A DNA stretch of 64,000 bases. Source: Enterococcus sp. 9D6_DIV0238. Lineage in GTDB: Bacteria; Bacillota; Bacilli; Lactobacillales; Enterococcaceae. A program made the translations under genes and the position numbers. Numbering within the stretch: position 1 is the first letter of the stretch; every line of letters begins with the position of its first letter. This document shows positions 36,755-53,841 of the stretch, in pieces. The stretch is from positions 2,644,001 to 2,708,000 of the forward strand of contig NZ_CP147246.1 in NCBI RefSeq assembly GCF_002174455.2, written 5' to 3'. Under the pieces are notes generated by a model. It made no database searches and had not been told where the DNA came from. It saw nothing but the letters and a program-made list of their open reading frames with translations.

Positions 36755-36757
36755 TTC

Positions 36758-37337: not shown

Positions 37338-38081
37338 ATGGTAGAAGAGCAACAGAAAAAAAGGAAGAAAAAAAAAGGCAATGCGCAAATAAAATCATCA
37401 AAACAATCCATAAATAAAATAAATTCAGAAAATAAAAAATCAAACCCAAAAAAGAAAGCGAGAAAATCACCTCCTAGTTCTAAAAAGAGTAAAAATAAGG
37501 GACATTCAGAAAGAAGAAAACCGATTCCAAAGCAAAAGAGAAATCCCTTGTATACATTTATTTTTAATGTTTTCTTTTATAGTTTTATTTCATTCATGGT
37601 TATTGGATCGATATTGTTTGCAACAAGCAAGAGTTCAGACAGAAGTGTTCTTGGTTATCGTTTCTTTGGTGTTTTAACTGATTCAATGGTGCCAAGAGAT
37701 CCTAAAACTCAAAAAGGCGGCTTTCATTCTGGAGACATTATTGTCGTGAAAAATATTGAAGGTGACTCAGCAAAGGTGGGAGACATCATTACCTTTAAGC
37801 CTAGCATCAACAGCACTGCTTTTTTGACACATAGAGTAAAAAAGAAAATGGATCATTTAGGTGATACCAAAGGGACCTACTATATCACACAAGGAGATGC
37901 AAATAAAGCGGAGGACGTCCCTATAAGTGAAAAACAAGTAGTTGGTAAAAAAGTTTTTGCGATACCTAAAGTAGGCGGCATTTTGAACTTTGTCAGTGAA
38001 AATCTACTGGTGTCGATCATTTTCTTAGTTTCAGTCTTTGGTTTTATCACGATTATTCGCTATTACATTTTAAACAAATAA
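37338..38081 (+). CDS. sipW: SipW-type signal peptidase I
   Basis: The 247-residue protein starts with an unusual Lys-rich tail of about 70 residues. A transmembrane helix near 75-95, the peptidase domain and a C-terminal helix near 222-243 follow. The catalytic residues are Ser116 in GVLTDSMVP and His165 in FLTHRV. The Ser-His pair instead of Ser-Lys marks the ER/SipW type. QGDANKAEDVPI near 192-203 is also typical. In Bacillus, SipW removes the signal peptides of TasA and TapA. Here it heads an operon of three SipW-dependent proteins and two other surface proteins, which are presumably its substrates. Confidence 0.92.
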   Translation: MVEEQQKKRKKKKGNAQIKSSKQSINKINSENKKSNPKKKARKSPPSSKKSKNKGHSERRKPIPKQKRNPLYTFIFNVFFYSFISFMVIGSILFATSKSSDRSVLGYRFFGVLTDSMVPRDPKTQKGGFHSGDIIVVKNIEGDSAKVGDIITFKPSINSTAFLTHRVKKKMDHLGDTKGTYYITQGDANKAEDVPISEKQVVGKKVFAIPKVGGILNFVSENLLVSIIFLVSVFGFITIIRYYILNK

Positions 38082-38177: not shown

Positions 38178-39224
38178 ATGCAAAAAAACAAGAAGAAAAA
38201 AATATTGGCCTTAGCAAGCGGATTTGCGCTTGTTGCTGTAATGGCAGCGACATTTGCCTGGTTCACGAGTGAGGACCAAAAAACCAACCACTTTGAAGGT
38301 CAAATCGCAACAGGAAAAGATATCGAGGTAGTGGAAACATTTGAACCGCCGACCGAATGGGAACCAGGTTCAGAAGTAAACAAAGATGTGGCAATTGCCA
38401 ATATTGGTAAATATGACACATTGATCCGTGTATCTTTAAGTGAGTCATTACAATTATTGAAAGATCATAACGCAAAACAAACAACAGGTGCAGAGCTTGA
38501 AAATCAAACAAGCAAAACTGTTTATGTATTACCAGGAACAGACGCACCAGCAGGATTTACAGATTCTGTCTTTGATGGAGCTGCACCAACATTAACTGTT
38601 GCTGCGGGTGAATTCAGTGGAACTTATACATTAAAAGTAAAAGAAAAAGCTGAAACTGTCGGCACAAAAACAACTTATACGTACCGTTATGCGTTTGAAA
38701 AAGGCGGCATACTTTACCACGCTAGCGGAGTTGACGGATTTGAACGTAATGCGTCTAATCAAATCAAAGTGAAATCAGGCACACCATCATTAAGCTATGT
38801 TTCATTAGAATATAATGCTGCAGACGAAAGAACTTGGACAGATGCACCGATCTACACACCAACATTCACTGCAGACGGTACTTTAATTTGGAATGCACCA
38901 GCTGCTACAGGTTCTGGAAATATTCAAGTATCATTCAACAATATTACAACAGATCCTACAGTTGCTGACAAATGGTATTTCAATGCTGCTGATGGTTACT
39001 TCTACTACACAAGTGTTGTTGCACCAGGCGTAAATACATCACAATTGATGGACGCTGTTAAATTGCTTGGAACTGCTGGTAATGAATACAGCAAACTAAT
39101 CTACGATTTAACTGTTAAAGGTCAAGGAATCTCAGCATACAAAGATGCTGTAGATCAATGGTTGCCAGCAGGCGTCAATGACCCATTAGCAACTGCACTA
39201 AAAGCTTTAGTACCAGCTAAATAA
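38178..39224 (+). CDS. SipW-dependent matrix protein (BsaA/TasA-like) 1
   Basis: This 348-residue secreted protein has a Lys-rich start and a SipW-type signal (ALASGFALVAVMAATFAWFT) followed by SEDQKTNHFEGQ. The mature part begins with a conserved stretch, VVETFEPPTEWEPGSEVNKDVAIANIGKYDTLIRVSL, and carries DGYFYYTSVV near residue 275. The layout matches BsaA-family proteins related to TasA/camelysin, which form fibres in biofilm matrix. It is the largest of three paralogues here and probably the main fibre subunit. AAGGAAG precedes the ATG, 97 bases after sipW. Confidence 0.85.
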   Translation: MQKNKKKKILALASGFALVAVMAATFAWFTSEDQKTNHFEGQIATGKDIEVVETFEPPTEWEPGSEVNKDVAIANIGKYDTLIRVSLSESLQLLKDHNAKQTTGAELENQTSKTVYVLPGTDAPAGFTDSVFDGAAPTLTVAAGEFSGTYTLKVKEKAETVGTKTTYTYRYAFEKGGILYHASGVDGFERNASNQIKVKSGTPSLSYVSLEYNAADERTWTDAPIYTPTFTADGTLIWNAPAATGSGNIQVSFNNITTDPTVADKWYFNAADGYFYYTSVVAPGVNTSQLMDAVKLLGTAGNEYSKLIYDLTVKGQGISAYKDAVDQWLPAGVNDPLATALKALVPAK

Positions 39225-39262: not shown

Positions 39263-40021
39263 ATGAAGAATCAGCACAGGGGGAAAGGAAAGCTTTTGAT
39301 CGGGCTTATATTGATATTTAGCCTATTGATTGCTTTTAAACCTGTTGAAGCTAGAGGTGAGTCCGCTCTTCCTTCTGGGATGGTAGTTGGCGATGACCAA
39401 GGAATTAAAGTCAATAGTGATGGGAAATACTTGATCGATATTCGTGATGTCGCACCTGGTAAAAAATGGTCTACTAAAATTACGATCATCAATGTGGAGA
39501 AAGATATCCCGTATCAATTAACCATGACTAGCAGTAAACCGACATTGATCGAAGGAAATCTTGATTTATCCAAAGCTATTCAAATGAGTTTATTTCTTGA
39601 TGGAAAAGAAGTGTATCAAGGACCTTTGTCAGGTGTTAGTAAAGCAAGAAATTTACAAGATAAAGCAAATCCCTTAAATTTAGGCATCTATAAGGGAGGC
39701 GATACTCATTTATTAGAAGCCAAATTTGAGTTGGATGGTAAGTCCTACACAAATCGGGATTTTTTCAAAAAGAACGTAGTCGAAAATATTTGGAACTTTA
39801 AAGCAGTTAAAACAGAATTACCAGATACAAAAGGACCAGACAAGCCTAAAAATATCATTGACACAGTAAAAGATCGACTGTCATTTCCAAAAACAGGTGA
39901 ACAATGGCGTGAAGCTTTGTTATTCATGTGTATTGGCCTATTTTTGATCTTGATCGTCCTATTGATCTTGAAGCATAAAAAAAATGAGCAAGGAAAGAAA
40001 AATAAAAAATGGATTTCTTAG
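39263..40021 (+). CDS. Sortase-anchored surface protein with FPKTG motif
   Basis: This 252-residue secreted protein has a signal peptide ending near AFKPVEARG, a mature domain of about 150 residues of beta-rich sequence (VNSDGKYLIDIRDVAPGKKWSTKITI), and a cell-wall sorting signal. The signal is FPKTG (208-212), a membrane helix and a Lys-rich tail. FPKTG is an accepted LPXTG variant. It lies between two SipW-dependent paralogues in one operon, so it may anchor the fibre to the wall in the way TapA helps TasA. No sortase gene is in the window. AAGGAGGAAGAAGG precedes the ATG. Confidence 0.8.
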   Translation: MKNQHRGKGKLLIGLILIFSLLIAFKPVEARGESALPSGMVVGDDQGIKVNSDGKYLIDIRDVAPGKKWSTKITIINVEKDIPYQLTMTSSKPTLIEGNLDLSKAIQMSLFLDGKEVYQGPLSGVSKARNLQDKANPLNLGIYKGGDTHLLEAKFELDGKSYTNRDFFKKNVVENIWNFKAVKTELPDTKGPDKPKNIIDTVKDRLSFPKTGEQWREALLFMCIGLFLILIVLLILKHKKNEQGKKNKKWIS

Positions 40022-40050: not shown

Positions 40051-40908
40051 GTGAAAAAGAAGTTAGCGAAAAAGAAAAAAAATACTCGCAGAAAAAAGTT
40101 TAAACTCCATGCCAAACTAATCATTGCAGTCTGCGCGTTTCTTTTTTCTGGTTTGATGGTTCTAGGAAGTACATATGCTTGGTTCGTTTCAGAAGACGAA
40201 GAAAACAACCATTTTGTGGGAGCGAGGTTATCAGCTGAAATCGTTGAAGATTTCGTCCCGGATTTCGAATGGCAGTCAGGAATGACAGTAAAAAAAGTCG
40301 TTCGTGTCAAAAACACTGGAAACATGCCTGCCTTTGTTCGGATCAGCTTATATGAATATTTACTGATGTTCAAAATAGATGTGGCAGATCAGACAGGGAA
40401 TGGGAATTTAGCTCTTTCGCCCAATGCCGTACAGCCGATTGCAGAAATAGAGCATCCAAAAAACTGGGCAAATGCAGCAGCAGGAGGCGGGACATATCTT
40501 TATGATGGACATTATTATATTGCTAAAAGTGCAGTGATCCCAGCTAATACCGCAGATCGATACAAGTTCAAAGATGCTGCTCGCAACGGAACAGATTTGA
40601 AATGGTTCAAAGTGAACTTTCCAACGAATATCTACGAAAGTTTGCCAGCAAGTGGGACACAAAACTACTGGCTATATCAAGATGGTTATTTTTATTACTC
40701 AGAATTATTAGAGCCAAATGACTTAACAACACCGATTGTTGAGAGTGTTTCACTGGATCAAAGTGCACCAAACAAATTTAAGGGAGCTCTTTATAAGTTA
40801 GAACCAGTAATGGACGCTCACGATGCCACGCAAATTTTGTTGAGTAATTGGGAGATCACACCGTCAAGCCCAGCAGCCAATTTATATAAAGATCGGCTAA
40901 GTGACTAA
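40051..40908 (+). CDS. SipW-dependent matrix protein (BsaA/TasA-like) 2
   Basis: The GTG start at 40051 has ACAGGAGG about ten bases before it. The 285-residue protein has a very basic N terminus, a hydrophobic signal with STYAWFVSEDEENNHFVG, then VEDFVPDFEWQSGMTVKKVVRVKNTGNMPAFVRISL, parallel to paralogue 1. DGYFYYSELLEP lies near 211-222. The three paralogues share the DGYFYY element but otherwise diverge, which suggests different fibre subunits rather than recent duplicates. The gap to the next gene is only 17 bases. Confidence 0.82.
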   Translation: MKKKLAKKKKNTRRKKFKLHAKLIIAVCAFLFSGLMVLGSTYAWFVSEDEENNHFVGARLSAEIVEDFVPDFEWQSGMTVKKVVRVKNTGNMPAFVRISLYEYLLMFKIDVADQTGNGNLALSPNAVQPIAEIEHPKNWANAAAGGGTYLYDGHYYIAKSAVIPANTADRYKFKDAARNGTDLKWFKVNFPTNIYESLPASGTQNYWLYQDGYFYYSELLEPNDLTTPIVESVSLDQSAPNKFKGALYKLEPVMDAHDATQILLSNWEITPSSPAANLYKDRLSD

Positions 40909-40925: not shown

Positions 40926-41585
40926 TTGAAAACAAAAAAATCGAAAAAGAAAATTAAAATAGCGAAATCCCTCTTTTTACTTACGAGCGCAGCGATCATT
41001 TTGGTGATGGTGTCATTGGGATTGCATCGAACGTATGCAGCTTTAACAGATAGTGATCAAAAAGAAAATGATTTTAGAGTAGGAAATGTTCAGACAGAGA
41101 TCAAAGAAGAATTTGATCCGCCAAGTATTTTTGAGCCAGATAAAGAATATTCAAAAAAAGTCCAGATAACAAATACTGGTGAACAGGATATCTTTATTCG
41201 AGTGTTAGCTTTACCAAGTATCACCAAACAACAATCGAATGGTTCAACGCTCTTATTGCCAGCTACTACAGAAGGAAGCAACCCGGTTTTGACGATCGAT
41301 TACAATCTGACAGATTGGATCAACGGACAGGATGGTTATTTCTATTATAAAAAGAAACTAGCGAAAAATGAACAGACAGCAGTTCTTTTTACGAAAGTAA
41401 AAATGAATCAGGCGGCAATTACAGAGGAATATGAAAATGTTTCATTGACCATTGAAATCAAAGCAGAAGGCATCGGAACAACGAAATATTCTTATCGAGA
41501 TGCTTGGTGGAACGCTGAGACACCGACCACCGGCCCGCTTTTAGATGTTGATAATGCATTGAAAGGACAAACAAGCGGTCAATAA
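40926..41585 (+). CDS. SipW-dependent matrix protein (BsaA/TasA-like) 3
   Basis: This 219-residue protein starts at TTG 40926, supported by GAGGAGGAG just upstream. The signal region is FLLTSAAIILVMVSLGLHRTYAALTDSDQKENDF, and the mature part has EEFDPPSIFEPDKEYSKKVQITNTGEQDIFIRVLALP and DGYFYYKKKLAKNEQ. It is the smallest paralogue and may be a minor subunit or cap. It is followed after 31 bases by the vWA-domain gene in the same operon. Confidence 0.82.
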   Translation: MKTKKSKKKIKIAKSLFLLTSAAIILVMVSLGLHRTYAALTDSDQKENDFRVGNVQTEIKEEFDPPSIFEPDKEYSKKVQITNTGEQDIFIRVLALPSITKQQSNGSTLLLPATTEGSNPVLTIDYNLTDWINGQDGYFYYKKKLAKNEQTAVLFTKVKMNQAAITEEYENVSLTIEIKAEGIGTTKYSYRDAWWNAETPTTGPLLDVDNALKGQTSGQ

Positions 41586-41616: not shown

Positions 41617-43863
41617 ATGAAAAAGGGAAGAAGAAAGAAATTACGTTTTTTTCATTGGATGATGATTGTTGCAAGTTTGATTGGATTAGTTTATTTTGCA
41701 CAGTCGGCACTCTTATATACGAATGCGCCTATCAAAGCTGCTTTGAAGACTGATCTTCAACCTGGGGAAGTGAAATTGAGTAAGACCGCTAAACCGGTAG
41801 AGGGTATGGTCAACCAGTGGGATATCACCGTTCGGATCGAAGGACGTAATCAATTTCCACCGCCGCCAACGGATATTGTTTTAATCATTGATACTTCAGG
41901 AAGTATGGAAGAAAATGATCGAATGATCAAAGCTAAGAGCGCCGCAGAAAAATTTGTAAACATGGTGCTCCACAAAGATTATGTCAATCGAATCGCTTTA
42001 GTTACTTATAATTCCACTGTGACGAATTATACATTCAATCAGGCTGGATGGAGTGATCAATTTGTTGATTACGCCCATAAAAGTCTATTGATCGATAAAA
42101 TCAAAGAATTAGAACCCGTTGTCAACGGAGGAACCTTTACACAAGCTGGAATCAAATCTGCAACAGAAGTCATGGCAAAAGCTACTGGAGAAAAGAGAAA
42201 CATCGTACTTATTTCTGATGGAGTACCAACCTATAGCTATCCGCCTACTGCACCTTATAACCAATTAAGCGGGATGGAGCTTTTTGATTATCCTAGTGGT
42301 GCTGCAGGATATAACTATTATGAAAGTGTCAAAACGATTCCAGAAGCCAATTTTGACTACAGTAAACCTTACGGAAATGGTGCTAAATATCGTATTGGTG
42401 CATTTGCACCAGAATATGAGCAAATGCCCACAGGCTCTAAAAATCGTTTGATGGCCAATCATGCACATAGCGCGATTGCTCAAGCAACCATTACTAAAAA
42501 CGAAAAAATGTCGAATGGTGACTTTTTAGTAACAGATTTCTATACGATCGGTGTGGATTTAGATTCCGCTTCTCAAGATGATGAAATCAAAACGGGGAAT
42601 CAGACCTTGAAAGAAATTGCCTCATCAGAAGATAAATGTTTTGCTGCAACTGCAGATAATTTAGATGACATTTTAAGTGGCATTGCCGGTGAAATCGTCG
42701 GTGCCATCAAATCAGCCCATGTCGTAGATCCGATGGGAACAGGTTTTGTTATGAATGGCAGTGAGTCTGTCACTCAAGGGAATTCTGAAGCGAAGGATGT
42801 TTTAGGTGTAAAAACGATCAATTGGGATGTAGGAACACTCAAAACGCCTGTTTCAAATGATCCAGATGAAGATGTGATGTATGCGGAAATGACCTATCGA
42901 GTAGATGCGACAAATGATGTCTTAAAACCTAATGTGATCGATACAAATGGATTAGCTAAAACAAATGGCAAAACAACGATCGTTTACAAAAGATACGATG
43001 ATACGGTCATACCGTCAGAATTTGAGGTCCCTAGTGTCAAACCAATTATTGTAAGCTTACAAAAGAAACTCCTGGATGAAGACGGTAAGGAAGTGACAGA
43101 GAAGTCTGATTCGTTTGATTTTAAATATGGGAATGATCAATATACAGGGAACGATACATTTACACTTTTCCCGACTGAAGTGAAAAAAATCGTCCATCCA
43201 TGGAAAGCTAGTCAAGAATACACGATTGAAGAACTACTAAAGTCGACACAAGACTATGAGACGCAAATAGAGATCAACGGACAAGTAACAGCAGGAACCA
43301 AAGATGTCTTCAAATTCGATTCGGTAAATGGACAATACACCGATCAACAAATCATTGTCACAAATACAAGAATCGCTCAAATAAGAAAAGTGTATCTAAA
43401 TATTCGACAAGCTGTAATCGGCCCAAATGAAGAGCTGGTGATCCCTTCAAAAGGATATTTTACATCTGATATTGAAAACACTGATCAAACGAGCAATATA
43501 ATTTCTAAAAGCACAACAAAAGATACGCCAGCCGAAGTATCTGAATCCCTATTTATGAAATATGAACTTATGTTGAAAAAAGGAGAAACAAAAGTATCTA
43601 TTAGCGATATCATTCCAGAATACTATCAATTTGCAGGATATATTGTTTCTTCAACGAATCAGAATCTGAATACAACACATATTTCAAGTAATACGAGTGG
43701 ATTAATGAAAACGAATAAGGCAGAACTAGATTATCAAACGAACGAAGAATACTGGCTGACGATGTTTATTACACCAAAATTGGGAACAACTAACGATGGT
43801 GACAAAGAAACATCACCTAGACCTTATAGTTGGGCATACAAAGTAAATCAATTTGGTCAGTAA
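41617..43863 (+). CDS. Secreted von Willebrand factor A-domain protein
   Basis: This 748-residue protein has an N-terminal membrane/signal helix near residues 10-32 and a vWA domain near 85-370. The MIDAS metal site starts at Asp92 (DTSGSMEEN, Asp92-x-Ser94-x-Ser96), and GGTFTQAGI carries the distal Thr. Beta-rich Cna/pilin-like segments follow (about 470-590 and 600-740). vWA proteins often sit at the tips of Gram-positive pili. There is no LPXTG motif at the C terminus, so it is either held by its N-terminal helix or joins the fibre non-covalently. It is the last gene of the SipW operon. AGAAAGAAGG precedes the ATG. Confidence 0.85.
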   Translation: MKKGRRKKLRFFHWMMIVASLIGLVYFAQSALLYTNAPIKAALKTDLQPGEVKLSKTAKPVEGMVNQWDITVRIEGRNQFPPPPTDIVLIIDTSGSMEENDRMIKAKSAAEKFVNMVLHKDYVNRIALVTYNSTVTNYTFNQAGWSDQFVDYAHKSLLIDKIKELEPVVNGGTFTQAGIKSATEVMAKATGEKRNIVLISDGVPTYSYPPTAPYNQLSGMELFDYPSGAAGYNYYESVKTIPEANFDYSKPYGNGAKYRIGAFAPEYEQMPTGSKNRLMANHAHSAIAQATITKNEKMSNGDFLVTDFYTIGVDLDSASQDDEIKTGNQTLKEIASSEDKCFAATADNLDDILSGIAGEIVGAIKSAHVVDPMGTGFVMNGSESVTQGNSEAKDVLGVKTINWDVGTLKTPVSNDPDEDVMYAEMTYRVDATNDVLKPNVIDTNGLAKTNGKTTIVYKRYDDTVIPSEFEVPSVKPIIVSLQKKLLDEDGKEVTEKSDSFDFKYGNDQYTGNDTFTLFPTEVKKIVHPWKASQEYTIEELLKSTQDYETQIEINGQVTAGTKDVFKFDSVNGQYTDQQIIVTNTRIAQIRKVYLNIRQAVIGPNEELVIPSKGYFTSDIENTDQTSNIISKSTTKDTPAEVSESLFMKYELMLKKGETKVSISDIIPEYYQFAGYIVSSTNQNLNTTHISSNTSGLMKTNKAELDYQTNEEYWLTMFITPKLGTTNDGDKETSPRPYSWAYKVNQFGQ

Positions 43864-43885: not shown

Positions 43886-44758
43886 TCAATTAATTTGATT
43901 TGATTGCAAAATACTTTGATAGTCTTCAACGATTTTACAATAATCTAAGGTCTCTAGGATATCTAAGTATTTTGCTATTTCAGGTGTCAATTGTTTAGAT
44001 GTATCAGCTGAATGGGCAATCGCATGATTTAAGCGGGCAATAAGCATTTCAAATAGCCGATAATCTGATTGTGCATTAGCGATGGCAAGTTTAGAAAAAT
44101 CCATGGCATGTTGATAGTCTTTATAATTTAAACATAACGAGGAGAGATTTAAATAAATTCTCAGTTTTGTATCTTGTAAAGTTTCAATTTGATTCAAAGG
44201 ATCGATTTTATCGGTCACTAATGTTCCTAAAGCGATCGCCTCTGAGGGCGAAAAACAATAAAGAGAATTGTTCAAAAGTTTTAGCTCATACAGGTACCAT
44301 TTATCTACACCGATCAAATAGTTTTTGATTGGGCTCATAAGTTGCTGTAAAGAAGGATTTTGCGGTGTTTCTTCGTTTGTAAAATTTATTTGAAGCATCG
44401 CCTGCGTAATCAAAAAAAGATGATAATACTTTTCATTTTTTGTTGTTTGATAGCGTTGATCAGCAAGCTGTTTCAACGTCTCAAGGTAAGCTTTATCTTT
44501 TTTAAAAACAGCATGACTTAATTCGTAGTATAACTGGTTTTCAGCGGGAAAATACTCTGGGTCAAGTAAGTTAAGAAACTCTTCAACAGACAGAAATAGT
44601 TTCTCCAAGATCAATAAGAATTTATCGAATGAGGGCATGCTGACATTTGATTCAATTAAGTAGTAAGTTTGTCTAGTCATTATTCCTGAATAAACATTTT
44701 TTTGGCTGAGACCTTTTTCAATTCTGATTTTTTTTATTAATGATCCATAATTATTCAA
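43886..44758 (-). CDS. Rgg-family transcriptional regulator (RRNPP type)
   Basis: This 290-residue protein has an N-terminal XRE helix-turn-helix (about residues 5-62, LIKKIRIEKGLSQKNVYSGIMTRQTYYLIESN). An all-helical C-terminal region of the Rgg/GadR/MutR kind follows (about 70-285, with KNEKYYHLFLITQAMLQIN and YKDYQHAMDFSKLAIANAQ). Rgg proteins bind short imported peptides. The gene lies between the fibre operon and the SpaA/lanthipeptide genes and is divergent from an 11-codon hydrophobic peptide ORF. It probably controls one or both neighbouring units. AAAGGAG precedes the start. Confidence 0.88.
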   Translation of the reverse strand: MNNYGSLIKKIRIEKGLSQKNVYSGIMTRQTYYLIESNVSMPSFDKFLLILEKLFLSVEEFLNLLDPEYFPAENQLYYELSHAVFKKDKAYLETLKQLADQRYQTTKNEKYYHLFLITQAMLQINFTNEETPQNPSLQQLMSPIKNYLIGVDKWYLYELKLLNNSLYCFSPSEAIALGTLVTDKIDPLNQIETLQDTKLRIYLNLSSLCLNYKDYQHAMDFSKLAIANAQSDYRLFEMLIARLNHAIAHSADTSKQLTPEIAKYLDILETLDYCKIVEDYQSILQSNQIN

Positions 44759-44989: not shown

Positions 44990-47440
44990 ATGAAACAAAA
45001 GCTTAGTTATGTACTTATTCCATTTATCATGGTTTTCATTGCGTTGGGGTTGCTTAATGGACCAACAGCAGAAGCAACAAGTACGAATGCAACATGGTCA
45101 ACAGCAACAAATTCAACAACAGTTGGTCTTCCCAACTTGGGTGATGTCCAAAATAATGTTTTACAGACTCAACAGCCGACAGCTAGATTTTTAGGCGTAA
45201 CTTGTTATGCAGGTGTTCAAGTAATCAAATATGATTCAAAAACGAATGCAAGATTAGCTGGAGCAGAATTTACGATCTATGATTCATGGGGGCGTGCTGT
45301 TCAAGTCATCCAGTCAAATGCAAACGGGATTGCTCAAACAACTACCTTACCTTTAGGTAACTATTCGATCCGAGAAACAAAAGCACCGAGCGGCTATCAG
45401 CTTGAATCTAGTCGTATGTATTTTTCTCTAATGAGAAGTGGTCAACTACTTTGCTTGACGAAATGTAATGTTCCGCTACCAGAGCAAAAAGGCGGACTGC
45501 AAGTAGTCAAAACGAATGAGTCAAATCAAGTGTTGGCTGGTGCTGTTTTCGATGTATATAATTCCAACAATCAGCTTGTAGGAAGAATTACCACTGGTGC
45601 AAATGGAGTAGCTGCGTTAAGCAATTTACCTTTTGGCACATATAAACTAGTTGAAGTTCAAGCACCAAACGGTTATGAAGTAGATTCAACGCCGAAATAT
45701 GTGACGATTTCTTCAACAAATAAAACTGTAACGATTTATGTCACTAATAAAAAAGCTACAGGTAAGATCTTGATCGTTAAACAAAGTGTGGAAGGCAGAT
45801 TACTATCAGGTGCTACTTTCCAAGTATACAATGCAAACAATCAGTTAGTTGGAACGGTCACTACAAGTGATAGTGGGTTTGCTACGTTGAACGATCTACC
45901 TTATGGCACTTACAAATTAGTTGAAACAAAAGCGCCGGACGGCTATGAACTAGATCCAACACCGCATTATGTCACTATCTCAAAAGATACACCAAATGGG
46001 GTTGCAAGTATTGCCATTGTCAATAAGAAAAAAGTCACGACAGGTAACCTTGAAGTCATCAAAAAAGATGAAGAAGGAAAATTACTTGCAGGAGCAGAAT
46101 TCAATGTATTCAACGCAAATAACCAATTAGTCGGAACGGTTACAACAGATGCAAATGGTGTAGCGACATTAAATGATCTACCTTTTGGCACCTATAAATT
46201 GATTGAAACAAAAGCGCCGGCAGGCTATGAGTTAGATGCGACACCGCATTATGTGACGGTATCTGAAAATGATCCGAACGGAAAAGTCAGCATTACAGTG
46301 GTGAATAAAAAAGAACAAACAACAGGTAACCTTGAAGTCATCAAAAAAGATGAAGAAGGGAAGCTCTTAGCAGGAGCAGAATTCGAAGTATACGATAGTA
46401 ATGATCAGTTAGTAGGGAAAGTTACAACAGATGCTAACGGAGTCGCTACTTTAGCAGATTTACCATATGGTACGTACAAATTGATCGAAACAAAAGCACC
46501 GGACGGTTATGAAATGGATGCGACACCAAAATATGTCACACTTTCTAAAACAGATCCAAACGGCAAAGCAACGATCGAAGTCTTGAATAAAAAAGAAGTC
46601 GTACCTGAGACTGGTTCATTGAAAATCATCAAATATGTTCAAGGATCAGATCCAATCGAATATTTAGCAGATGCAGTCTTTGAAGTCTATGATACAGATA
46701 CACAATTATTAGGCACATATACAACAGATCAAAATGGAGAAATTCTCCTAAATGATTTGGCGCCTGGTAAATATTATGTAATAGAAGTACAAGCACCTCC
46801 TGGTTTTGAAGAAGATACAACCTTCTATGAAATCACGGTAGAAGCTGGAAAAGTTGCTGAAATCAGACATGCCAATGTGAAAAAGGAAAACTTAGGTAGT
46901 CTAAAAGTCACCAAATATGCATTGGATGAAGATGGGTTTGAGACAGAAAATGTTTTACCTAACGCTGAATTTTCAGTAACAGATTCAAATGGGAATGTTC
47001 ATACAGGAACAACGGATGCTAATGGAGAAGTCTTCTTCTCTAACTTGCCGGTAGGTGAGGTTGTCATCGCAGAAACGAAAGCACCGGACGGCTATGAACT
47101 AGATGCTCCACAACAAACCAATACCATTGAAGTCGGTAAAATTGCAGAAAATGTTTTCTACAATAAACCGAAGCAAATTCAAGGACGTGCTTTAGTCTAT
47201 GTCTCAAGTACAGATGCTAAGCAAGTTTTAAGTGGTTTAGAATATCAAATTACTTGTACGAAAGGTAATGCCTTAGAAACAACTGCTATTACCAATAGTT
47301 TTGGCCAAATCAGTATTTACTTACCGCCTGGTGAGTATGAAATTGCGCCATTGATCAAAGCAAAAACAACATCCGTTGTTAAACCAACAAGCTTTAAAAT
47401 CGAACCAAACAAATTTACGATCATTAGATTATCTATTTAA
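44990..47440 (+). CDS. Secreted SpaA/CnaB-repeat adhesin or matrix protein
   Basis: This 816-residue protein has a signal peptide (about 1-30, ending near TAEA) and then about eight prealbumin-like SpaA/CnaB domains of 85-95 residues. Each follows a pattern such as GxLxVxK...LAGAEFxVYDxNxQLVGxVTTDANGVATLxDLPxGTYKLIETKAPxGYE. Domains 4 and 5 are nearly identical over NLEVIKKDEEGKLLAGAEF. The Lys and Glu (ETKAP) positions for intramolecular isopeptide bonds are present. There is no LPXTG motif or C-terminal helix, unlike pilins, so the protein is probably released or bound non-covalently. The start at 44990 has only AGGGG at a long distance. It ends at a terminator just before the lanthipeptide precursor. 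Confidence 0.85.
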   Translation: MKQKLSYVLIPFIMVFIALGLLNGPTAEATSTNATWSTATNSTTVGLPNLGDVQNNVLQTQQPTARFLGVTCYAGVQVIKYDSKTNARLAGAEFTIYDSWGRAVQVIQSNANGIAQTTTLPLGNYSIRETKAPSGYQLESSRMYFSLMRSGQLLCLTKCNVPLPEQKGGLQVVKTNESNQVLAGAVFDVYNSNNQLVGRITTGANGVAALSNLPFGTYKLVEVQAPNGYEVDSTPKYVTISSTNKTVTIYVTNKKATGKILIVKQSVEGRLLSGATFQVYNANNQLVGTVTTSDSGFATLNDLPYGTYKLVETKAPDGYELDPTPHYVTISKDTPNGVASIAIVNKKKVTTGNLEVIKKDEEGKLLAGAEFNVFNANNQLVGTVTTDANGVATLNDLPFGTYKLIETKAPAGYELDATPHYVTVSENDPNGKVSITVVNKKEQTTGNLEVIKKDEEGKLLAGAEFEVYDSNDQLVGKVTTDANGVATLADLPYGTYKLIETKAPDGYEMDATPKYVTLSKTDPNGKATIEVLNKKEVVPETGSLKIIKYVQGSDPIEYLADAVFEVYDTDTQLLGTYTTDQNGEILLNDLAPGKYYVIEVQAPPGFEEDTTFYEITVEAGKVAEIRHANVKKENLGSLKVTKYALDEDGFETENVLPNAEFSVTDSNGNVHTGTTDANGEVFFSNLPVGEVVIAETKAPDGYELDAPQQTNTIEVGKIAENVFYNKPKQIQGRALVYVSSTDAKQVLSGLEYQITCTKGNALETTAITNSFGQISIYLPPGEYEIAPLIKAKTTSVVKPTSFKIEPNKFTIIRLSI

Positions 47441-47467: not shown

Positions 47468-47512
47468 TTTAAGCTGGACGATTGGTGTTCAAAGCAAACG
47501 TCCAGTTTAAAT
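47468..47512 (+). terminator. Terminator after the SpaA-repeat gene
   Basis: TTTAAGCTGGACG (47468-47480) pairs with CGTCCAGTTTAAA (47499-47511). It separates the SpaA gene from the lanthipeptide genes, which must then have their own promoter, read-through aside. Confidence 0.75.
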
Positions 47513-47520: not shown

Positions 47521-47541
47521 AATAAATGTGCACACTTTATT
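47521..47541. promoter_or_regulatory. Near-palindrome in the lanA promoter region
   Basis: AATAAA and TTTATT arms flank TGTGCACA, itself a perfect 8-base palindrome but offset by one base. It lies 34 bases before the precursor gene's start. An operator or promoter element is possible; I could not assign clear -35 and -10 boxes. Confidence 0.3.
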
Positions 47542-47574
47542 ATTAGGAAAAAACATAATGGGAGGAAAAAAACT

Positions 47575-47763
47575 ATGAACAAAACTGCTGAAAAAAAAGT
47601 TGGAAAATCTTTTGAAGAATTAACACCAGAAGAAATGAATAAAGTACAAGGGAGCTTCTTCGGATGGAGCTGGTCTTCATCTTCATCATCTTCATCATCA
47701 AGTAGCTGTTACTCTACAAGATGTAGCTATAGCTGCTGCTCTTCAAGATGTTGCGGTTGGTAA
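47575..47763 (+). CDS. lanA: Class II lanthipeptide precursor with poly-Ser and Cys-rich core
   Basis: The precursor has 62 residues. The leader (1-27) has the acidic helix SFEELTPEEMNKVQGS typical of LanM substrates and ends in a GS double-glycine-type site for a C39 peptidase. The core (28-62) starts FFGWSW, continues with eleven consecutive serines (34-44), then CYSTRC and SYSCCSSRCCGW. Cysteines are at 45, 50, 54, 55, 59 and 60. Serines are coded by mixed TCT, TCA, AGT and AGC codons. LanM would dehydrate Ser/Thr and join them to Cys; six thioether rings are the maximum. I know no lantibiotic with such a core. GGGAGG precedes the ATG by about ten bases. Confidence 0.88.
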   Translation: MNKTAEKKVGKSFEELTPEEMNKVQGSFFGWSWSSSSSSSSSSSCYSTRCSYSCCSSRCCGW

Positions 47764-47778
47764 TCTAAAATAACTCGA

Positions 47779-47828
47779 TGCTAGATAAGTTGCCTTTAAA
47801 AAAGGCAATTTATCTAGCACTTATTTTT
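47779..47828 (+). terminator. Hairpin between precursor and lanM, likely partial terminator
   Basis: GCTAGATAAGTTGCCTTT (47780-47797) pairs with AAAGGCAATTTATCTAGC (47801-47818) with one G-T pair, followed by ACTTATTTTTAAT. Such hairpins after lanthipeptide precursors let more precursor than enzyme mRNA be made. Confidence 0.75.
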
Positions 47829-47886
47829 AATATGGAACTAATTCAGGAGAATTTACATAAATAAATTGATTTAAAGGAGACTAGCT

Positions 47887-50800
47887 ATGAGTCTTAATAA
47901 TTTAGCTAAAGCAACCTCGATCCGTCAACGATATGATCTATTAAAAAAATACTATGTTGGGAAAACAGAATCACCGAATACCTCATCACTTGAAAACTAT
48001 AAAAAATGGCGAAGCCGACCGACTACGGTAACGGATGAACGATTTGAAGAAATCCTCCAGTCTGCAAGATTGACAAAAGAAGAGTTTGATCTGGCCATCA
48101 AAGAATTGACAGAAGAAGAAAAAGACTATATTTTTTCAGAAATTCAAACAGATGATTGGCTTCAAATGACACAAGAGATTTTGGAACAGGATGATCATCT
48201 TGTCAATGACGTGTTTGACGAAAGCAAAGCTAATTTTACTTATGCCTTACGTCTGCATATCGATTATTTTGAACGGAAGCTCAAAGAAATCTTGAAAGAG
48301 TTTTCAGAAGTAGAGGTGCAAGCGAGCGCAATGATGGATTATGTCGGTGAAGTCATCAATCGATTCATGGATATCGGGCTTAGAACCTATGTATATGATT
48401 TACACGTAACGAAAGAAAAGCTGGAAATAGAGCCGGAACTTGATGAGAAAAAGGCGTTTCAAAAGTACCTCATCTCTCGTTTTGATTCAAAAGAAAAAGT
48501 AGCAGACTTTTTTGCTCACTATCCAGTATTAGCAAGGCTATATGCAGAAACTATCAGCTTTCAGCTTGTTAACTTTAAAGAGCTGATGGAAGCACTTGAT
48601 GAAAGTCAGGATGAATTGAATGACATTTTCAAACTAAGACTTCCTCTTAGTTTGACTGGGTTAAAAATGGGTGCTGGAGATTCACATGATCGTGGGAAAT
48701 CAGTGGCAATTTTAACGTTTCATGGAGAATCAGAACTTGTTTATAAACCAAAAAATTTAGCTATTAGTGAGCGTTTTGATCGGTTTGTGGCAGAGGTACA
48801 AAAATTAGATGCGTCATTTGATTTTTATTTAACAACTAAAATAGTGAAAGAAAACTATTCGTTTGAAGAACGTTTGCTTTATCTGGAATGTGTAACAGAG
48901 GCAGACGTGCATCACTATTATCGTCAATTTGGTCAAACGATTGCTTTAGTATATTTGCTTAACGGTAATGATTTTCATTTAGAAAACGTCCTGGCTTTTG
49001 AAAAGTATCCTGTATTGATCGATTTGGAAACGATCATTCAAAATCATTTTCCAATGCCAGACAGCCAAAATGCGATCGTTAAAGTAATGCAGGAGAATGG
49101 TGAATCCGTAGTGATGAGCGGTTTAGTGCCGATTTATCTTTTTGAAGAACGTGCGGAAGAAGATGTCGAAGGTGCATCAAAAGGAATTCAACTGAGTGCT
49201 TTGAGTGGGGGAGAACAAAAATTACCGTATAAGGTTTTGAAGCTTGTCAATTTTGATTCTGTGAATATGCAGTTTTTATATCAAGAGCATATCACCGATG
49301 CTGCTGAAAATATTCCAATGTATCACGGAGAAAAAGTTGATTTTGTTCCATATATCGACACCATTGTGAAAGGCTTTAAGGAGTTTTCTGCTTTTGCACT
49401 GAATAATCAAGAAACATTGGCGGAAATCGTAGAAAATATTTTTTCAGATTGTCTTGTTCGTAATGTGATCAAAACAACGCAAAGCTATGGAGATCTCCTT
49501 GATTATTCCACACACCCGACATGTATGGTCGACTACATCGAAAGAGAAAAATTATTCGAAAATCTTTGGATGCATGGATATTCCAATGCTCAGCCTGTGC
49601 CGTTTGAAGTAAGAGATATGCTTCAGCATGACGTGCCGATTTTCTTCAATCCTACTAGCAGTCGTGATCTTGTTGCTAGTCAAGGAGAAGTGATCAAGGA
49701 TATGTATCCTGATAGAGCAATCGATTTAGAGGTAGCAAAAGTCAAAGGTTACTCCAAACAAGAAGAAACAGAACAGCTGGATTATTTAAAAACATCCTTT
49801 GGCCTGTATCACTCAACAGATCTCCAAGAAAAACGAGTTCCGTTAAAAGACATCACTGGACAAACGATTTTTGAAAAGGGTGCCTATGCAATTGGTGAAG
49901 CAATCCTTGAAGCTGCCTTTTTGGGAGAAGATTCGATCGCTTGGAAAGATATTGAAGAATCTTCGCCTGACAATTATGTGGTCAATGTGATGAACGAGAA
50001 TTTTTATGATGGTATTACAGGAATGTATTTGTATTTCAGTGAACTCTATTATGCACTAAAAGAGCCGCAATTTAAAGAAGCTTATCAATTAGCCGAAAAG
50101 CTAGTGCTGAAACTTGAAGAAGATTATGTAGACAGTGTTTCTGCATTCTACGGTTCTTTTGCAGCAGTCTATCCTTTACTTTATACCTATAGAATGACCA
50201 AAGAAGAGCAATTGCTGCAGGCTGCGGAATCGATTGCTGAAAAATATATGACCAACTATGATCCGGAAACGATTGAAAGCTATGACTGGAATGGCGGGAC
50301 GGCCTCGATCATTAAAGTTTTTGTGCTTTTATATCAAGAAACGGGGCAGCGGCGCTATTATGATTTTGCGAAACGATTATTATTCGATTTGGACTTAAAC
50401 AAGGTAACGCAAGGTGGATTTGCTCATGGTTATTCAGGAGTGATCCATGCGGCCAATAGTTTGCTGACAGTTACAGATGATCTAGAAGTTGAATTGATCA
50501 TAAAAAAATGTTTGATCAAAGAACGTACCACCTTTGATCCTAAGCAAAAAGGTTGGCTGGATCTCAGACCTGTACCGCCGATGGTCAATGACTTGTGGTG
50601 TTATGGTTCTACGGGGATTGGTTTAGCTTATTTGGATCTTTTGAATACTGGGTTTACGGATTCAAAATTGCAGTCAGAGGTTCAACTTGCGGCAGATCGT
50701 CTACTTGCACAGGATAAAAGAGATGACTGTCTCTGTCATGGAAATTTAGGGGACCTAGCCTTTTTGAATGCTTTCGGAGAAACAACTTTTGCAACTGCTG

Positions 50801-51000
50801 AACAGAAAGCAAAAATCAAGGAGAAACAAGAGAAAATAAAGACGAAAATCATGAACCAAGCCTATACCTTCGAAGGGTTGCCGACAATTCCTAAATACGG
50901 CTTATTTACTGGTTTATCTGGAATCGGCCATCAAATTTTACGAATGCATACCCCAGAAACAACAGCAGATGTATTAACACTGACTTTACCAAAAAAATAA
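47887..51000 (+). CDS. lanM: Class II lanthipeptide synthetase LanM
   Basis: This 1037-residue bifunctional enzyme has an N-terminal dehydratase domain (about 130-560) with GAGDSHDRGKSVAIL, LVYKPKNLAISERF, LNGNDFHLENVLA and VLIDLETIIQ, the kinase-like residues that phosphorylate Ser/Thr. The C-terminal LanC-like cyclase (about 680-1037) has zinc ligands Cys905 (DLWCYGSTG), Cys950 and His951 (CLCHGN). All key residues are present, so the enzyme should be active. The length is usual for LanM. AAAGGAGAC precedes the ATG. It acts on the precursor encoded 124 bases upstream and is followed by the transporter after 16 bases. Confidence 0.96.
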   Translation: MSLNNLAKATSIRQRYDLLKKYYVGKTESPNTSSLENYKKWRSRPTTVTDERFEEILQSARLTKEEFDLAIKELTEEEKDYIFSEIQTDDWLQMTQEILEQDDHLVNDVFDESKANFTYALRLHIDYFERKLKEILKEFSEVEVQASAMMDYVGEVINRFMDIGLRTYVYDLHVTKEKLEIEPELDEKKAFQKYLISRFDSKEKVADFFAHYPVLARLYAETISFQLVNFKELMEALDESQDELNDIFKLRLPLSLTGLKMGAGDSHDRGKSVAILTFHGESELVYKPKNLAISERFDRFVAEVQKLDASFDFYLTTKIVKENYSFEERLLYLECVTEADVHHYYRQFGQTIALVYLLNGNDFHLENVLAFEKYPVLIDLETIIQNHFPMPDSQNAIVKVMQENGESVVMSGLVPIYLFEERAEEDVEGASKGIQLSALSGGEQKLPYKVLKLVNFDSVNMQFLYQEHITDAAENIPMYHGEKVDFVPYIDTIVKGFKEFSAFALNNQETLAEIVENIFSDCLVRNVIKTTQSYGDLLDYSTHPTCMVDYIEREKLFENLWMHGYSNAQPVPFEVRDMLQHDVPIFFNPTSSRDLVASQGEVIKDMYPDRAIDLEVAKVKGYSKQEETEQLDYLKTSFGLYHSTDLQEKRVPLKDITGQTIFEKGAYAIGEAILEAAFLGEDSIAWKDIEESSPDNYVVNVMNENFYDGITGMYLYFSELYYALKEPQFKEAYQLAEKLVLKLEEDYVDSVSAFYGSFAAVYPLLYTYRMTKEEQLLQAAESIAEKYMTNYDPETIESYDWNGGTASIIKVFVLLYQETGQRRYYDFAKRLLFDLDLNKVTQGGFAHGYSGVIHAANSLLTVTDDLEVELIIKKCLIKERTTFDPKQKGWLDLRPVPPMVNDLWCYGSTGIGLAYLDLLNTGFTDSKLQSEVQLAADRLLAQDKRDDCLCHGNLGDLAFLNAFGETTFATAEQKAKIKEKQEKIKTKIMNQAYTFEGLPTIPKYGLFTGLSGIGHQILRMHTPETTADVLTLTLPKK

Positions 51001-51016
51001 GAAAGGGGGCGTTGTT

Positions 51017-53158
51017 TTGGTGAAAAAAGTTCCATTTATTGAGCAAAGTGAACATAGTGAATGTGGTCTTGCCTGTACCGCTATGGTATTGAATTATTAT
51101 GATGATCATGTGACCTTGAGCCACTTGCGCGATGTCTATGGCGTACCCAAAGGTGGGAATACCTTAACCAATCTTTACCAAATTTTACTGGATAGAGGAA
51201 TCGAAACGAAAGCGATCCGAGTACTGGAATTAGATGTTTTAGAAGAACAAACAGCACCAACGATTTGCTTTTGGGAAGAGCGACATTACGTTGTTTTAGA
51301 AAAGCTAACAGCGAAAGAGGCCATCATCCTTGATCCATCTACAGGGAGAAAAAAAATCAGACGAGAAGAATTCATCGCTGGTTTTTCAAATATTGCACTG
51401 ATTTTAGTCGATATCGATGTCACTGTGTCACAAAGAAAAAAAGCAAAAAATGCGACATGGGTCATATTGAAAGATATTTTAAAGAGTAAAAAAGCGCGTG
51501 TAGCAGTTTTTATTTTATTAACGCTGCTTATACAAGGTGTGACGATCATCGTTCCACGAATCACCCAAATGATCATCGATGGTGCAGATTCTGTGGTCAG
51601 CAACGGGCTTCAGATCGGCTTAACTATTTTGGCGTTATTTATCGCCTATTATTTTTTACAGGTGGCCAGAGGTTTAGTATTGATTTTATTGGAAAACTTA
51701 TTCGATCTAACCTTGATGAAAGAATTTATGCAAAAAATTATTCATCTGCCCTTGCGCTTTTTCATTAATCGTTCGACGGGTGATTTGATTTTTAGAGCGA
51801 ATTTAAGTGTGATCATCCAGCAAATCATGAGCCAGCGAATGTTAACGATTTTTGTCGATTTCCTTTTCGTATTTATTTACTTGATTTTGATGATCAGCAT
51901 GTCTGTTAAATTGACATTGATTGCAATTTTCGGTGCATTGCTTATGGGCTTGATTTCCGTAGTCAACTCGAGAAGAGTTCAAAGCATCACTAATAAAGAA
52001 TTGATTGCCCAATCAAAAGTGCAGCGTATTTTAGTTGAATTGTTTGAAGGAATGGAGACCGTGAAGTCGTCAGGCTCTGAAAACGAGTTCTATACAAAGT
52101 GGCGGAATGAGTTCAAAAATCAAATTGGTTTACGGGCTGAGAAGAGTCGCTTTTCAACTTGGGTCAGAACGATTCAAACCTCGATTCAGTTTATTTTACC
52201 GATCACATTGATTTATATCGGATTGATGCAGGTCGTAGCCGGTCAGGTGACTTTAGGGGAACTGATCAGTTTTAATGCATTGGCAGGAGCTTTTATCACA
52301 CCGATCGTTACAGTGTTTGATTCTTATACGGAGTTACTTTTATTGCGCTCTTATTTTGGTAAGCTGAATGAGATTTTAGAAGCCAAAGAGAGTCCTCGCT
52401 TAACACAGGCAGATGAAAAGATCACTCGTATTGATGAAATTGCAGCAAATGATATTTCATTCAAATACAGTCATTTTGAAGAAGAAATCTTGACGTCTGT
52501 TAGCTTCAAGATCGCAGCAGGAGAAAAAGTTGCGATCGTTGGGAAAAGCGGATCTGGAAAAAGTACGTTATTGAAGCTGCTGGCAGGCTTATATGATGTT
52601 AGTGCTGGAGACATTCGTTTTAATGATATCGATATAAGTAAAATTGATGAAACGTCTATAAAAAGCTGTGTGAGTATCGTGAATCAAAAGCCAACGATTT
52701 TTAATGCATCACTTTATGAAAATATCGTGTTGAATCAAAATGATGTCGCGCAAGAGCGGGTGGAACAGGCGATTTTTGATTCTAAAGTAGACGAAATCAT
52801 AATGAACTTACCGTTAGGTTTGGAAACACAAATTTCAGAAGGCGGTATGAATTTGTCTGGCGGTCAGATGCAGCGGATTTCGATTGCTCGTGCGTTAGTC
52901 AAGGAAACAAGTTTATTATTGATGGATGAACCGACAAGCTCATTAGATAATATTTCGGAGAACTTCATTATGAATAGACTAAAAATGTATGACTTTACTT
53001 GTATCATCGTTGCCCATCGGTTAAATACGATCAAGCATTTCGATCGGATTTTGGTAATGGATCAAGGCAGAATCGTTGAAGAAGGAACACATGACGAACT
53101 ATTGGAGTTAAAAGGACATTATTATTCCATTTATGTTGATCCGCAAAATATTAGTTAA
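51017..53158 (+). CDS. lanT: Lanthipeptide ABC transporter with C39 leader peptidase (LanT)
   Basis: This 713-residue exporter cuts the leader and exports the modified peptide. The N-terminal C39 peptidase has Cys16 in SECGLAC, His90 in ERHYVVL and Asp106 in LDPSTG. A membrane domain of about six helices follows (about 155-440). The ATPase domain has Walker A GKSGSGKST near 508-516, LSGGQMQRISIARAL, and Walker B LLLMDEPTSSLD. The start is TTG 51017 or GTG 51020, with AAAGGGGG upstream. The peptidase matches the GS site of the precursor. No separate immunity transporter (LanFEG) or LanI gene is recognisable nearby. Confidence 0.95.
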   Translation: MVKKVPFIEQSEHSECGLACTAMVLNYYDDHVTLSHLRDVYGVPKGGNTLTNLYQILLDRGIETKAIRVLELDVLEEQTAPTICFWEERHYVVLEKLTAKEAIILDPSTGRKKIRREEFIAGFSNIALILVDIDVTVSQRKKAKNATWVILKDILKSKKARVAVFILLTLLIQGVTIIVPRITQMIIDGADSVVSNGLQIGLTILALFIAYYFLQVARGLVLILLENLFDLTLMKEFMQKIIHLPLRFFINRSTGDLIFRANLSVIIQQIMSQRMLTIFVDFLFVFIYLILMISMSVKLTLIAIFGALLMGLISVVNSRRVQSITNKELIAQSKVQRILVELFEGMETVKSSGSENEFYTKWRNEFKNQIGLRAEKSRFSTWVRTIQTSIQFILPITLIYIGLMQVVAGQVTLGELISFNALAGAFITPIVTVFDSYTELLLLRSYFGKLNEILEAKESPRLTQADEKITRIDEIAANDISFKYSHFEEEILTSVSFKIAAGEKVAIVGKSGSGKSTLLKLLAGLYDVSAGDIRFNDIDISKIDETSIKSCVSIVNQKPTIFNASLYENIVLNQNDVAQERVEQAIFDSKVDEIIMNLPLGLETQISEGGMNLSGGQMQRISIARALVKETSLLLMDEPTSSLDNISENFIMNRLKMYDFTCIIVAHRLNTIKHFDRILVMDQGRIVEEGTHDELLELKGHYYSIYVDPQNIS

Positions 53159-53220
53159 GAGATGATAGGTGATTTTAAAAATAGGAGAAAACTCTTGGTT
53201 ATCATAGGGGGAGAAAAGCT

Positions 53221-53841
53221 ATGGCAGTTATTGGGTATATGCGTGTTAGTACACATCTTCAAAAATTTGATTCACAACAACAGGCACTGGATGATTACGG
53301 TGTAGATATGATTTTTAAAGAGTATGAAAGTGGACGGAAAAGCTTTCGAAATGAGCTAAACAAGGCATTAGATATTCTTGAACCGGGCGATACATTTGTG
53401 ATTTTCAAATTGGACCGGTTAGCAAGGGGAACAAAGCAGTTGCTTGTTTTACTGGAGCGGTTCAATGAACTGAATATCAATTTTGTCAGTATTGAAAATA
53501 ACATCGATACCTCAACACCAATGGGCCGATTCTTCTTTACGATCATGGGTGCTTTTGCCGAGATGGAAGCAGAATTGATTCGGGAACGTGTTTTAGCAGG
53601 ACTGAATGCTGCAAAGCAAAAAGGAGTGGTTTTAGGTCGACCGCCTTTAGTTGATCAGGTCAATGAAGCGCTTGAGTTATACCATAACACGAAGCTTCCC
53701 GCTGAACAAATTTCAAAACGCTGCGGGATTTCGATTTCTACCTTGTATCATCATTTAAGAAAAGAAGGCGTTTATCGAACAAAAACGACGAATGACCTAA
53801 TCGATATGGGCGAATTTATGGTTAGAGGTACTAAAAATTAA
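53221..53841 (+). CDS. Serine recombinase/resolvase 2, right boundary of the island
   Basis: This 206-residue small serine recombinase has Ser10 in YMRVSTHLQK, IFKLDRLARGTKQLL, STPMGRFFFTIMGAFAEMEAELIRERV, and a C-terminal helix-turn-helix (AEQISKRCGISISTLYHHLR). Long stretches are the same as in recombinase 1 (for example NNIDTSTPMGRFFFTIMGAF), yet flanking codons differ, so the two are older paralogues. It starts 62 bases after lanT with AGGGGGAG as ribosome binding site and may be co-transcribed with the lan genes. The tail (DMGEFMVRGTKN) is about 17 residues longer than in recombinase 1. Confidence 0.9.
   Translation: MAVIGYMRVSTHLQKFDSQQQALDDYGVDMIFKEYESGRKSFRNELNKALDILEPGDTFVIFKLDRLARGTKQLLVLLERFNELNINFVSIENNIDTSTPMGRFFFTIMGAFAEMEAELIRERVLAGLNAAKQKGVVLGRPPLVDQVNEALELYHNTKLPAEQISKRCGISISTLYHHLRKEGVYRTKTTNDLIDMGEFMVRGTKN

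Follow-up and report, generated by a model that had tools for sequence, protein, structure and literature searches.

Gene content of the lan-fibre block

Enterococcus sp. 9D6_DIV0238 carries, within a 64,000-nucleotide stretch of contig NZ_CP147246.1 (positions 2,644,001 to 2,708,000 of the forward strand; hereafter the window, by whose numbering all positions are given), a class II lanthipeptide pathway composed of a precursor gene (lanA), a synthetase gene (lanM) and an exporter gene (lanT), an assignment that is well supported by sequence. The initial annotation treated these genes as a stand-alone cluster, but they make up one end of a conserved block of surface-fibre genes, in which genes for a SipW-like peptidase, BsaA-family protein 1 (BsaA-1), an LPXTG-motif protein, BsaA-2, BsaA-3, a VWA protein, a regulator and a SpaA protein are followed by lanA, lanM, lanT and a recombinase gene. 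This setting of the lan genes is more interesting than the run of serines in the precursor. The features are as follows.

36185..36754, minus strand: outward-facing serine recombinase at the left block end (PF00239; 68% identical to the right-hand recombinase)
37338..38081, plus strand: SipW-like signal peptidase I (TIGR02228, 72.6 bits; cut-off 51.85)
38178..39224, plus strand: BsaA-1, BsaA-family SipW-dependent biofilm matrix protein (TIGR04090, 100 bits; cut-off 60)
39263..40021, plus strand: LPXTG-motif protein, likely wall anchor (C-terminal FPKTG motif and hydrophobic segment; NF053819 below cut-off, 29.5 of 47)
40051..40908, plus strand: BsaA-2, BsaA-family protein (TIGR04090, 78.5 bits; cut-off 60)
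40926..41585, plus strand: BsaA-3, BsaA-family protein (TIGR04090 just passed, 61.4 bits; cut-off 60)
41617..43863, plus strand: VWA protein with a GBS104-like tip-pilin Ig domain (PF00092 and PF21426 above cut-offs)
43886..44758, minus strand: Rgg-family regulator (PF21259 and TIGR01716 above cut-offs)
44990..47440, plus strand: SpaA (prealbumin-like) repeat protein (816 amino acids; Cys 72, 155, 159 and 756; no LPXTG)
47468..47512 (approximate ends), plus strand: hairpin between spaA and lanA (z -3.0 for a 136-nucleotide stretch)
47575..47763, plus strand: lanA, precursor peptide (ATG start, 62 amino acids; PF16934, 31.7 bits; cut-off 27.6)
47779..47819, plus strand: strong terminator-like hairpin between lanA and lanM (19 pairs; z -5.7 for a 123-nucleotide stretch)
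47887..51000, plus strand: lanM, class II lanthipeptide synthetase (1037 amino acids; TIGR03897, 669 bits; cut-off 304; CylM match)
51017..53158, plus strand: lanT, C39 peptidase/ABC exporter (TTG start, 713 amino acids; PF03412, PF00664, PF00005)
53221..53841, plus strand: serine recombinase at the right block end (PF00239; adjoins lanT in 17 of 17 orthologous loci)

With three BsaA-family proteins encoded beside a SipW-like peptidase, the block has the gene content of a BsaA-type SipW-dependent fibre operon and is predicted to be one. The peptidase does not reach the equivalog cut-off for Bacillus SipW (55 of 190), and no match of BsaA-1 to a solved structure was found by sequence. The FPKTG of the protein at 39263-40021 is the only sorting motif in the block; the VWA and BsaA-family proteins of the window have none, and neither does the SpaA protein, on which an LPXTG-type motif would mark a sortase-assembled LPXTG pilus. 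An invertible promoter or phase switch operated by the recombinases was considered and rejected, a repeat search of 35800-37400 having given imperfect repeats only.

Joint inheritance of the lan and fibre genes

Gene order was compared in 17 Enterococcus genomes with a close LanM (59-95% identity), which together with the window make up 18 loci; the neighbours in the window were searched by tblastn against ten Enterococcus loci from the LanM alignment, and seven genomes were added for gene order. The series LPXTG-motif protein, BsaA-2, BsaA-3, VWA protein, regulator, SpaA protein, lanA, lanM, lanT and recombinase is kept in 17/17 genomes. BsaA-1 precedes the LPXTG-motif protein in all 17 (partial where the locus sequence ends there), and lanA lies between spaA and lanM in every one, the copies of E. 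rivorum and E. larvae, which the automatic match missed, having been read directly. The sipW gene is present in 11 of the 17 loci, whose left ends are not always covered, and is cut in E. larvae; in the close relative G022 (locus L107) it consists of two open reading frames of 137 and 85 amino acids and may be broken or misread. The left recombinase occurs in all five orthologous loci covered for more than 1.3 kb upstream of sipW, the sequence of the other 12 ending short of that point. Between the VWA and SpaA genes, the regulator is Rgg-like in 14/17 and of another type in three (E. larvae, BWR-S5 and G006), of which the E. larvae protein, the one analysed with Pfam, passed PF00486 (Trans_reg_C). 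Five loci (L003, L006, L103, L104 and L105) have an extra gene of 221-222 amino acids between BsaA-2 and BsaA-3, which by eye looks like a regulator of this same type.

Across 22 genomes of the genus, lanA, a close LanM, the SpaA orthologue and the BsaA-2 orthologue (at least 52% identity) are jointly present in 17 and jointly absent from five, and a separate search confirmed lanA in the 17. Different fibre proteins are encoded in the block-less genomes, with BsaA-2 relatives of at most 44%; G018 is the exception and has none. When the search was widened to 105 genomes of the family, LanM at E <= 1e-150 was found in the same 17. The place where the block would lie can be seen empty in three of the five block-less genomes (G012, G013 and G019), in which the genes SMR-SMR-GH18-LPMO are joined with about 100-170 bp between; at that site the window, G022 and G001 carry about 18 kb (in the window, about 36115 to 53913). 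Of the remaining block-less genomes, G021 has the SMR genes and no GH18, and G018 has neither. The empty sites indicate that insertion or loss affects the lan and fibre genes together, as a single unit. Outward-facing recombinases stand at both block ends in the window and in the five loci where both ends are seen. In the available part of PMC12715929, PF00239 resolvases are enriched around class II lanthipeptide loci in general (8.2 versus 0.4), and the recombinase therefore carries less weight. In the window, the insertion site is flanked by secreted GH18- and LPMO10-like genes (53914-55579; named by eye). GH18 and LPMO adjoin the block in most, not all, orthologous loci; in E. rivorum the block is present without this flank, so the insertion site is not identical everywhere. 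No LanM orthologue was found on plasmids, where 100 records at E <= 1e-40 were all below 60% identity (27-28% in the 15 listed), and a nucleotide search of plasmids gave a single 58-base match.

Related genes are also found elsewhere in these genomes. Paralogous BsaA-type fibre loci without lan genes (L098 and L100 in G001, L092 and L099 in G022, L095, and L111-L117) occur several per genome in some species, and beside one of them lies a gene (L092:1589-2290) whose product combines, by eye, a resolvase-like N-terminal half with C-terminal hydrophobic segments, possibly a recombinase-derived membrane protein. A second LanM (about 28-32% identical to that of the window) is present in 20/22 genus genomes and is split in two in G007. 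The G022 copy (L093:3256-6147) lies near a queA-like gene and has no lanT- or lanA-like open reading frame recognised by a simple filter; it is possibly a conserved orphan synthetase. L092 and L093 were also considered as a second lan-fibre pair, with LanM about 18 kb from the fibre locus, and this was rejected, since unrelated genes intervene and the simple filter gave no lanA or lanT. In G015, an orphan LanA-like open reading frame of 72 amino acids (L121:9412-9630) shares the leader type and has a different core; no lanM match lies within 20 kb, and its product may be modified in trans. At a second place in its genome (L096), G005 harbours a lanthipeptide cluster of cytolysin-like type, in which LanM and LanT accompany three similar precursors.

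Precursor peptide, synthetase and exporter

The 62-residue precursor with eleven serines in a row and six cysteines, described in the initial annotation, is present at 47575-47763, and the residues given there as zinc ligands of LanM (Cys905, Cys950 and His951) and for LanT (Cys16, His90 and Asp106, with a C39 domain recognised by Pfam) are found in the translations. LanA, whose gene adjoins lanM, has a double-glycine-type leader ending ...VQG(S) and a Ser/Thr/Cys core, FFGWSW-Ser11-CYSTRCSYSCCSSRCCGW. The gathering threshold of Pfam Mersacidin (PF16934) is passed through leader residues 9-27 alone, and the lichenicidin A2 model TIGR03893 is not reached (23.2 bits against a cut-off of 32.95). 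The serine run of the window precursor is exactly 11 residues long and is encoded by mixed codons (TCT, TCA, AGT and AGC), so that no simple nucleotide repeat underlies it; a run of 7-14 residues is common to 17 of the 18 orthologous precursors, the window counted, and is thus not a matter of chance. It is absent from the DIV0212c precursor (one of the 18) and from the LJL99 protein P0006 (outside the 18), both of which have additional cysteines near the core start, and the run was on this ground rejected as an essential feature of LanA. The constant parts are the leader and a C-terminal motif of the type CYSxxCSYxCxSRCCG, and the serine run is the variable part. If LanT cleaves after Gly-Ser, the window core contains 18 Ser/Thr and six Cys, and a product with up to six rings and a run of dehydroalanines is possible. 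The DIV0212c orthologue has eight Cys against seven Ser/Thr (cut-site Ser counted); at least one of its cysteines cannot be in an intra-peptide thioether, and it is thus impossible for every cysteine of the family to be part of a thioether.

LanM contains PF13575 and PF05147, corresponding to the dehydratase and LanC-like halves, and aligns over its full length with CylM (PDB 5dzt; E 4e-111). The stretches GDSH..GK, YKPK, D.H.EN, ID.ET and VRNVI..TQ.Y, which we take to hold the catalytic residues, coincide in the two proteins, as do the zinc ligands, and both halves therefore look catalytically complete. LanT gave near whole-length matches to the structures of ComA and of peptidase-containing ABC transporters; defence models of PADLOC matched its ATPase region only. 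A long hairpin is predicted between lanA and lanM in 18/18 loci (the shuffle test was applied to the window only) and would fit a lanA message exceeding that of lanM.

A protein search with LanA returned six homologues, among whose database names are serine-rich class II lanthipeptide (E. termitis and E. ureasiticus) and mersacidin family lantibiotic (E. rotai and Enterococcus sp. LJL99). The earlier view that no lanthipeptide of this form has been described accordingly stands in part: the searches found no characterised peptide of this form, but homologues already bear NCBI names. One homologue is labelled Erwinia sp. CPCC 100877 (its LanM is 74% identical), and a contaminated assembly is suspected; all other LanM homologues of at least 49% identity that bear an organism name are from Enterococcus. 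No paper describing this peptide or a pairing of a lanthipeptide with a fibre was found by title and the start of the abstract, in a search that lay outside subscription papers. A class II locus of E. plantarum TRW2, which the accessible part of PMC12715929 presents for its defence genes, may be this locus.

Conservation of the block products

Within the block, conservation is highest in the leader and C-terminal core of LanA. When identity is averaged over every pairing of the 18 loci, the leader reaches 93% and the C-terminal core 92% (Ser-run region excluded), followed by LanT (82%), the recombinase (81%), BsaA-1 (74%, 13 loci), LanM (72%), the LPXTG-motif protein (67%), BsaA-3 (66%), BsaA-2 and the VWA protein (63% each) and the SpaA protein (62%); GH18, outside the block, has a mean of 92% (13 loci). 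Among the 48 pairs whose LanM identity is below 66%, the leader retains 92% and the core 81%, compared with 75% for the recombinase, 70% for LanT and 61% for LanM, and the exported fibre and SpaA proteins range from 48 to 61% (BsaA-1 61% in 32 pairs, SpaA 49%, VWA 48%); four divergent loci take part in most of these pairs, and the core stretch has just 18-19 residues, so that the figures are coarse. The LanM tree and the tree of four concatenated fibre proteins have 9/15 splits in common.

The SpaA protein and its cysteines

Seven SpaA stretches were recognised by Pfam in the SpaA protein, which also passed the SpaH/EbpB pilin model NF033902 (190.9 against 95). Its AlphaFold model is a chain of beta domains (mean pLDDT 80, pTM 0.28), and pilins and isopeptide adhesins are among the best matches of a fold search, with low whole-chain TM-scores. 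A thioester domain was considered and rejected: a TIE protein headed the fold list, but with TM-scores of 0.24 and 0.35, and no Pfam thioester domain is present.

Proteins exported by Gram-positive bacteria usually have few cysteines. In the SpaA protein there are 3-7 of them in 18/18 loci; Cys155 is invariant (18/18), Cys159 occurs in 13 loci, and 12 loci have a cysteine at residue 756. For the remaining exported proteins of the block the number is 0-3, with none invariant. BsaA-1 is cysteine-free in 11/13 loci, BsaA-2 and BsaA-3 have 0-2, whose positions recur only close to the N-terminus, the VWA protein has 0-3 (one at residue 341 in 5/18), and the LPXTG-motif protein has 0-3, its recurrent cysteine (15/18) lying inside the C-terminal hydrophobic segment. 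The neighbouring exported GH18 and LPMO are cysteine-free in 13/13 and 14/14 cases, respectively. In the AlphaFold model, Cys155 belongs to strand 153-160, where the first domain ends, and, judging from residue alternation in the repeats, would face outwards. The SpaA relative of the lan-less locus L098 in G001 has Asn at the position aligned to Cys155. This pattern is suggestive, and at most suggestive, of a thiol partner for LanA.

Possible function of the peptide

Lanthipeptides have mostly been studied as antibiotics, and a few morphogenetic ones are known in Streptomyces. Here a lanthipeptide pathway is inherited as one unit with a predicted biofilm-fibre operon in 17 enterococcal genomes, which suggests that its role is structural or tied to the matrix, with SpaA Cys155 as the candidate partner. 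We favour the reading that the finished peptide would be a structural part of a BsaA-type fibre or matrix and not a free antibiotic, and regard its chances as evenly balanced. Gene content, gene order, joint inheritance, the empty site and conservation are directly established here; the pathway beyond them would run as follows. LanM, as expected from its enzyme family, would dehydrate the Ser/Thr residues of LanA and close some of the cysteines, so that a dehydroalanine-rich stretch would be followed by a compact, Cys-rich knob at the C terminus, and LanT would export the product and cut the leader after Gly-Ser. Going by family membership, SipW would free the three BsaA-family subunits for polymerisation outside the cell, the LPXTG-motif protein would anchor the fibre, the VWA protein would sit at its tip, and the SpaA protein would decorate or space it. 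The peptide would then join the fibre; the favoured route, which is also the least certain step, would be through dehydroalanines and either SpaA Cys155 or lysines, yielding a hardened or coated fibre. The specific proposal that dehydroalanine-loaded LanA cross-links the biofilm fibre covalently, or covers it with a hard coat, through the invariant SpaA cysteine, so that lanthipeptide chemistry would build a surface polymer, is in our estimate unlikely. Should it hold, the surface fibres of Gram-positive bacteria would gain a further covalent chemistry next to sortase and isopeptide bonds, and it would be unwise to regard each LanM cluster as one for a bacteriocin.

Several observations count against a structural role or against SpaA as the partner. 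The LanA leader is of the cytolysin/mersacidin type, and the two precursors lacking the serine run mean that a poly-dehydroalanine tail cannot be essential. In the SpaA protein, the cysteines apart from Cys155 are mostly unconserved, and the counts in three loci take in over-long starts of the open reading frame; the only lan-less SpaA locus of this type available for comparison, L098, itself encodes two other cysteines, one of them in the first domain and unaligned with Cys155. The same locus, the second of its kind in G001, lacks lan genes and yet has the fibre genes, Rgg, the SpaA protein and both recombinases. The fibre module therefore does not depend on the lan genes, and the linkage may only mean that a lan cassette was inserted into a fibre island that is mobile. 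Strong splits of the fibre tree are contradicted by strong LanM splits in 3/13 cases, by LanT in none and by the recombinase in five, a sign of exchange; since the splits mostly agree and some conflict, descent appears to have been mostly joint with some exchange.

A lantibiotic associated with the matrix, made together with it to kill competitors at the colony surface, with the fibre block serving for its delivery and with immunity coming from a general resistance system elsewhere, is a possible explanation to which we attach tentative credence. The precursor passes the Pfam Mersacidin cut-off, its close relatives bear lantibiotic names at NCBI, and the only solved structures matched by LanM are CylM and LicM2. 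B. subtilis makes a biofilm-induced toxin, YIT, according to the available part of PMC6818787. On the other hand, the lists of open reading frames and the family scans of the window, which included no dedicated search for immunity families and which small proteins could escape, revealed no LanFEG- or LanI-like gene within the block; the only other ABC genes in the downstream part of the window, at 60625-62977, lie outside the block. Many lantibiotic clusters have no recognisable immunity genes, which blunts this argument. Bacteriocins usually change fast, unlike the LanA core, which stays 81% identical where the synthetase falls to 61%, and the pathway is tied to one fibre block in 17/17 genomes. 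The lack of a recognised immunity gene and the strong conservation of the core moved the antibiotic from first choice down to main rival.

A surface-active, morphogenetic lanthipeptide of the SapB/SapT kind that coats a pellicle non-covalently, or a signal sensed by the producer, appears improbable. The aromatic N-terminal head FFGWSW with a predicted hydrophobic dehydrated tail would suit the former, and morphogenetic lanthipeptides do exist, as the accessible part of PMC9011353 describes, but SapT is there assigned to class I and the synthetase here is of class II. An Rgg-family regulator within the block would suit a signal, yet it is replaced by a Trans_reg_C-type regulator in 3/17 loci, so that no fixed receptor is evident. 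It is very improbable that the lan cassette is a passenger that entered a mobile fibre island and persists there through hitch-hiking, functionally unconnected with the fibre. The recombinases at both ends and the clean empty site show that the island is mobile, and a lan-less sister island (L098) exists; against this, lanA, lanM and lanT are open in 18/18 loci, LanA is the most conserved product, and the close lanA-lanM pair is never found apart from the block among the 22 genus genomes.

Comparison with known systems

The lan genes resemble those of cytolysin/lichenicidin/mersacidin-type clusters (CylM, LicM2) in the two-half LanM, the C39-containing LanT and the LanA leader type. In contrast to the named families that were scanned, the core here consists of an aromatic head, a serine run and a CYSxxCSYxC motif ending in SRCCG, and the genes are fixed to a fibre block in which no immunity gene was recognised. 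The entries named serine-rich class II lanthipeptide from Enterococcus termitis and E. ureasiticus belong to the same family, with orthologous precursors in the same block; this is a database name, for which no paper was found.

On the fibre side, the matrix fibre of Bacillus subtilis formed by TasA with SipW, also discussed in PMC7395162, likewise has SipW-dependent subunits, but no lanthipeptide is involved there, and it is the BsaA-family model that the subunits here pass. As described in the part of PMC7395162 available, BsaA of C. perfringens forms extracellular polymers that resist sodium dodecyl sulfate and formic acid and require SipW. The sipW-bsaABCRSD operon presented there has a SipW peptidase and BsaA-family proteins in common with the enterococcal block; a BsaRS two-component system stands there in place of the Rgg regulator, and the VWA protein, the SpaA-repeat protein and the lanthipeptide pathway are additions of the enterococcal block.

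Among morphogenetic lanthipeptides, SapB (class III according to an abstract) and SapT (class I in the accessible part of PMC9011353) are made by synthetases of classes other than the class II enzyme found here. For cross-linking itself, the nearest parallel is the spirochete flagellar hook, whose lysinoalanine chemistry runs via dehydroalanine. The links there join Cys (or Ser) and Lys of the fibre subunits, as stated in the available part of PMC10691653. In the hook the fibre protein itself is converted, whereas in the enterococcal block a separate, enzyme-made peptide would supply the dehydroalanines.

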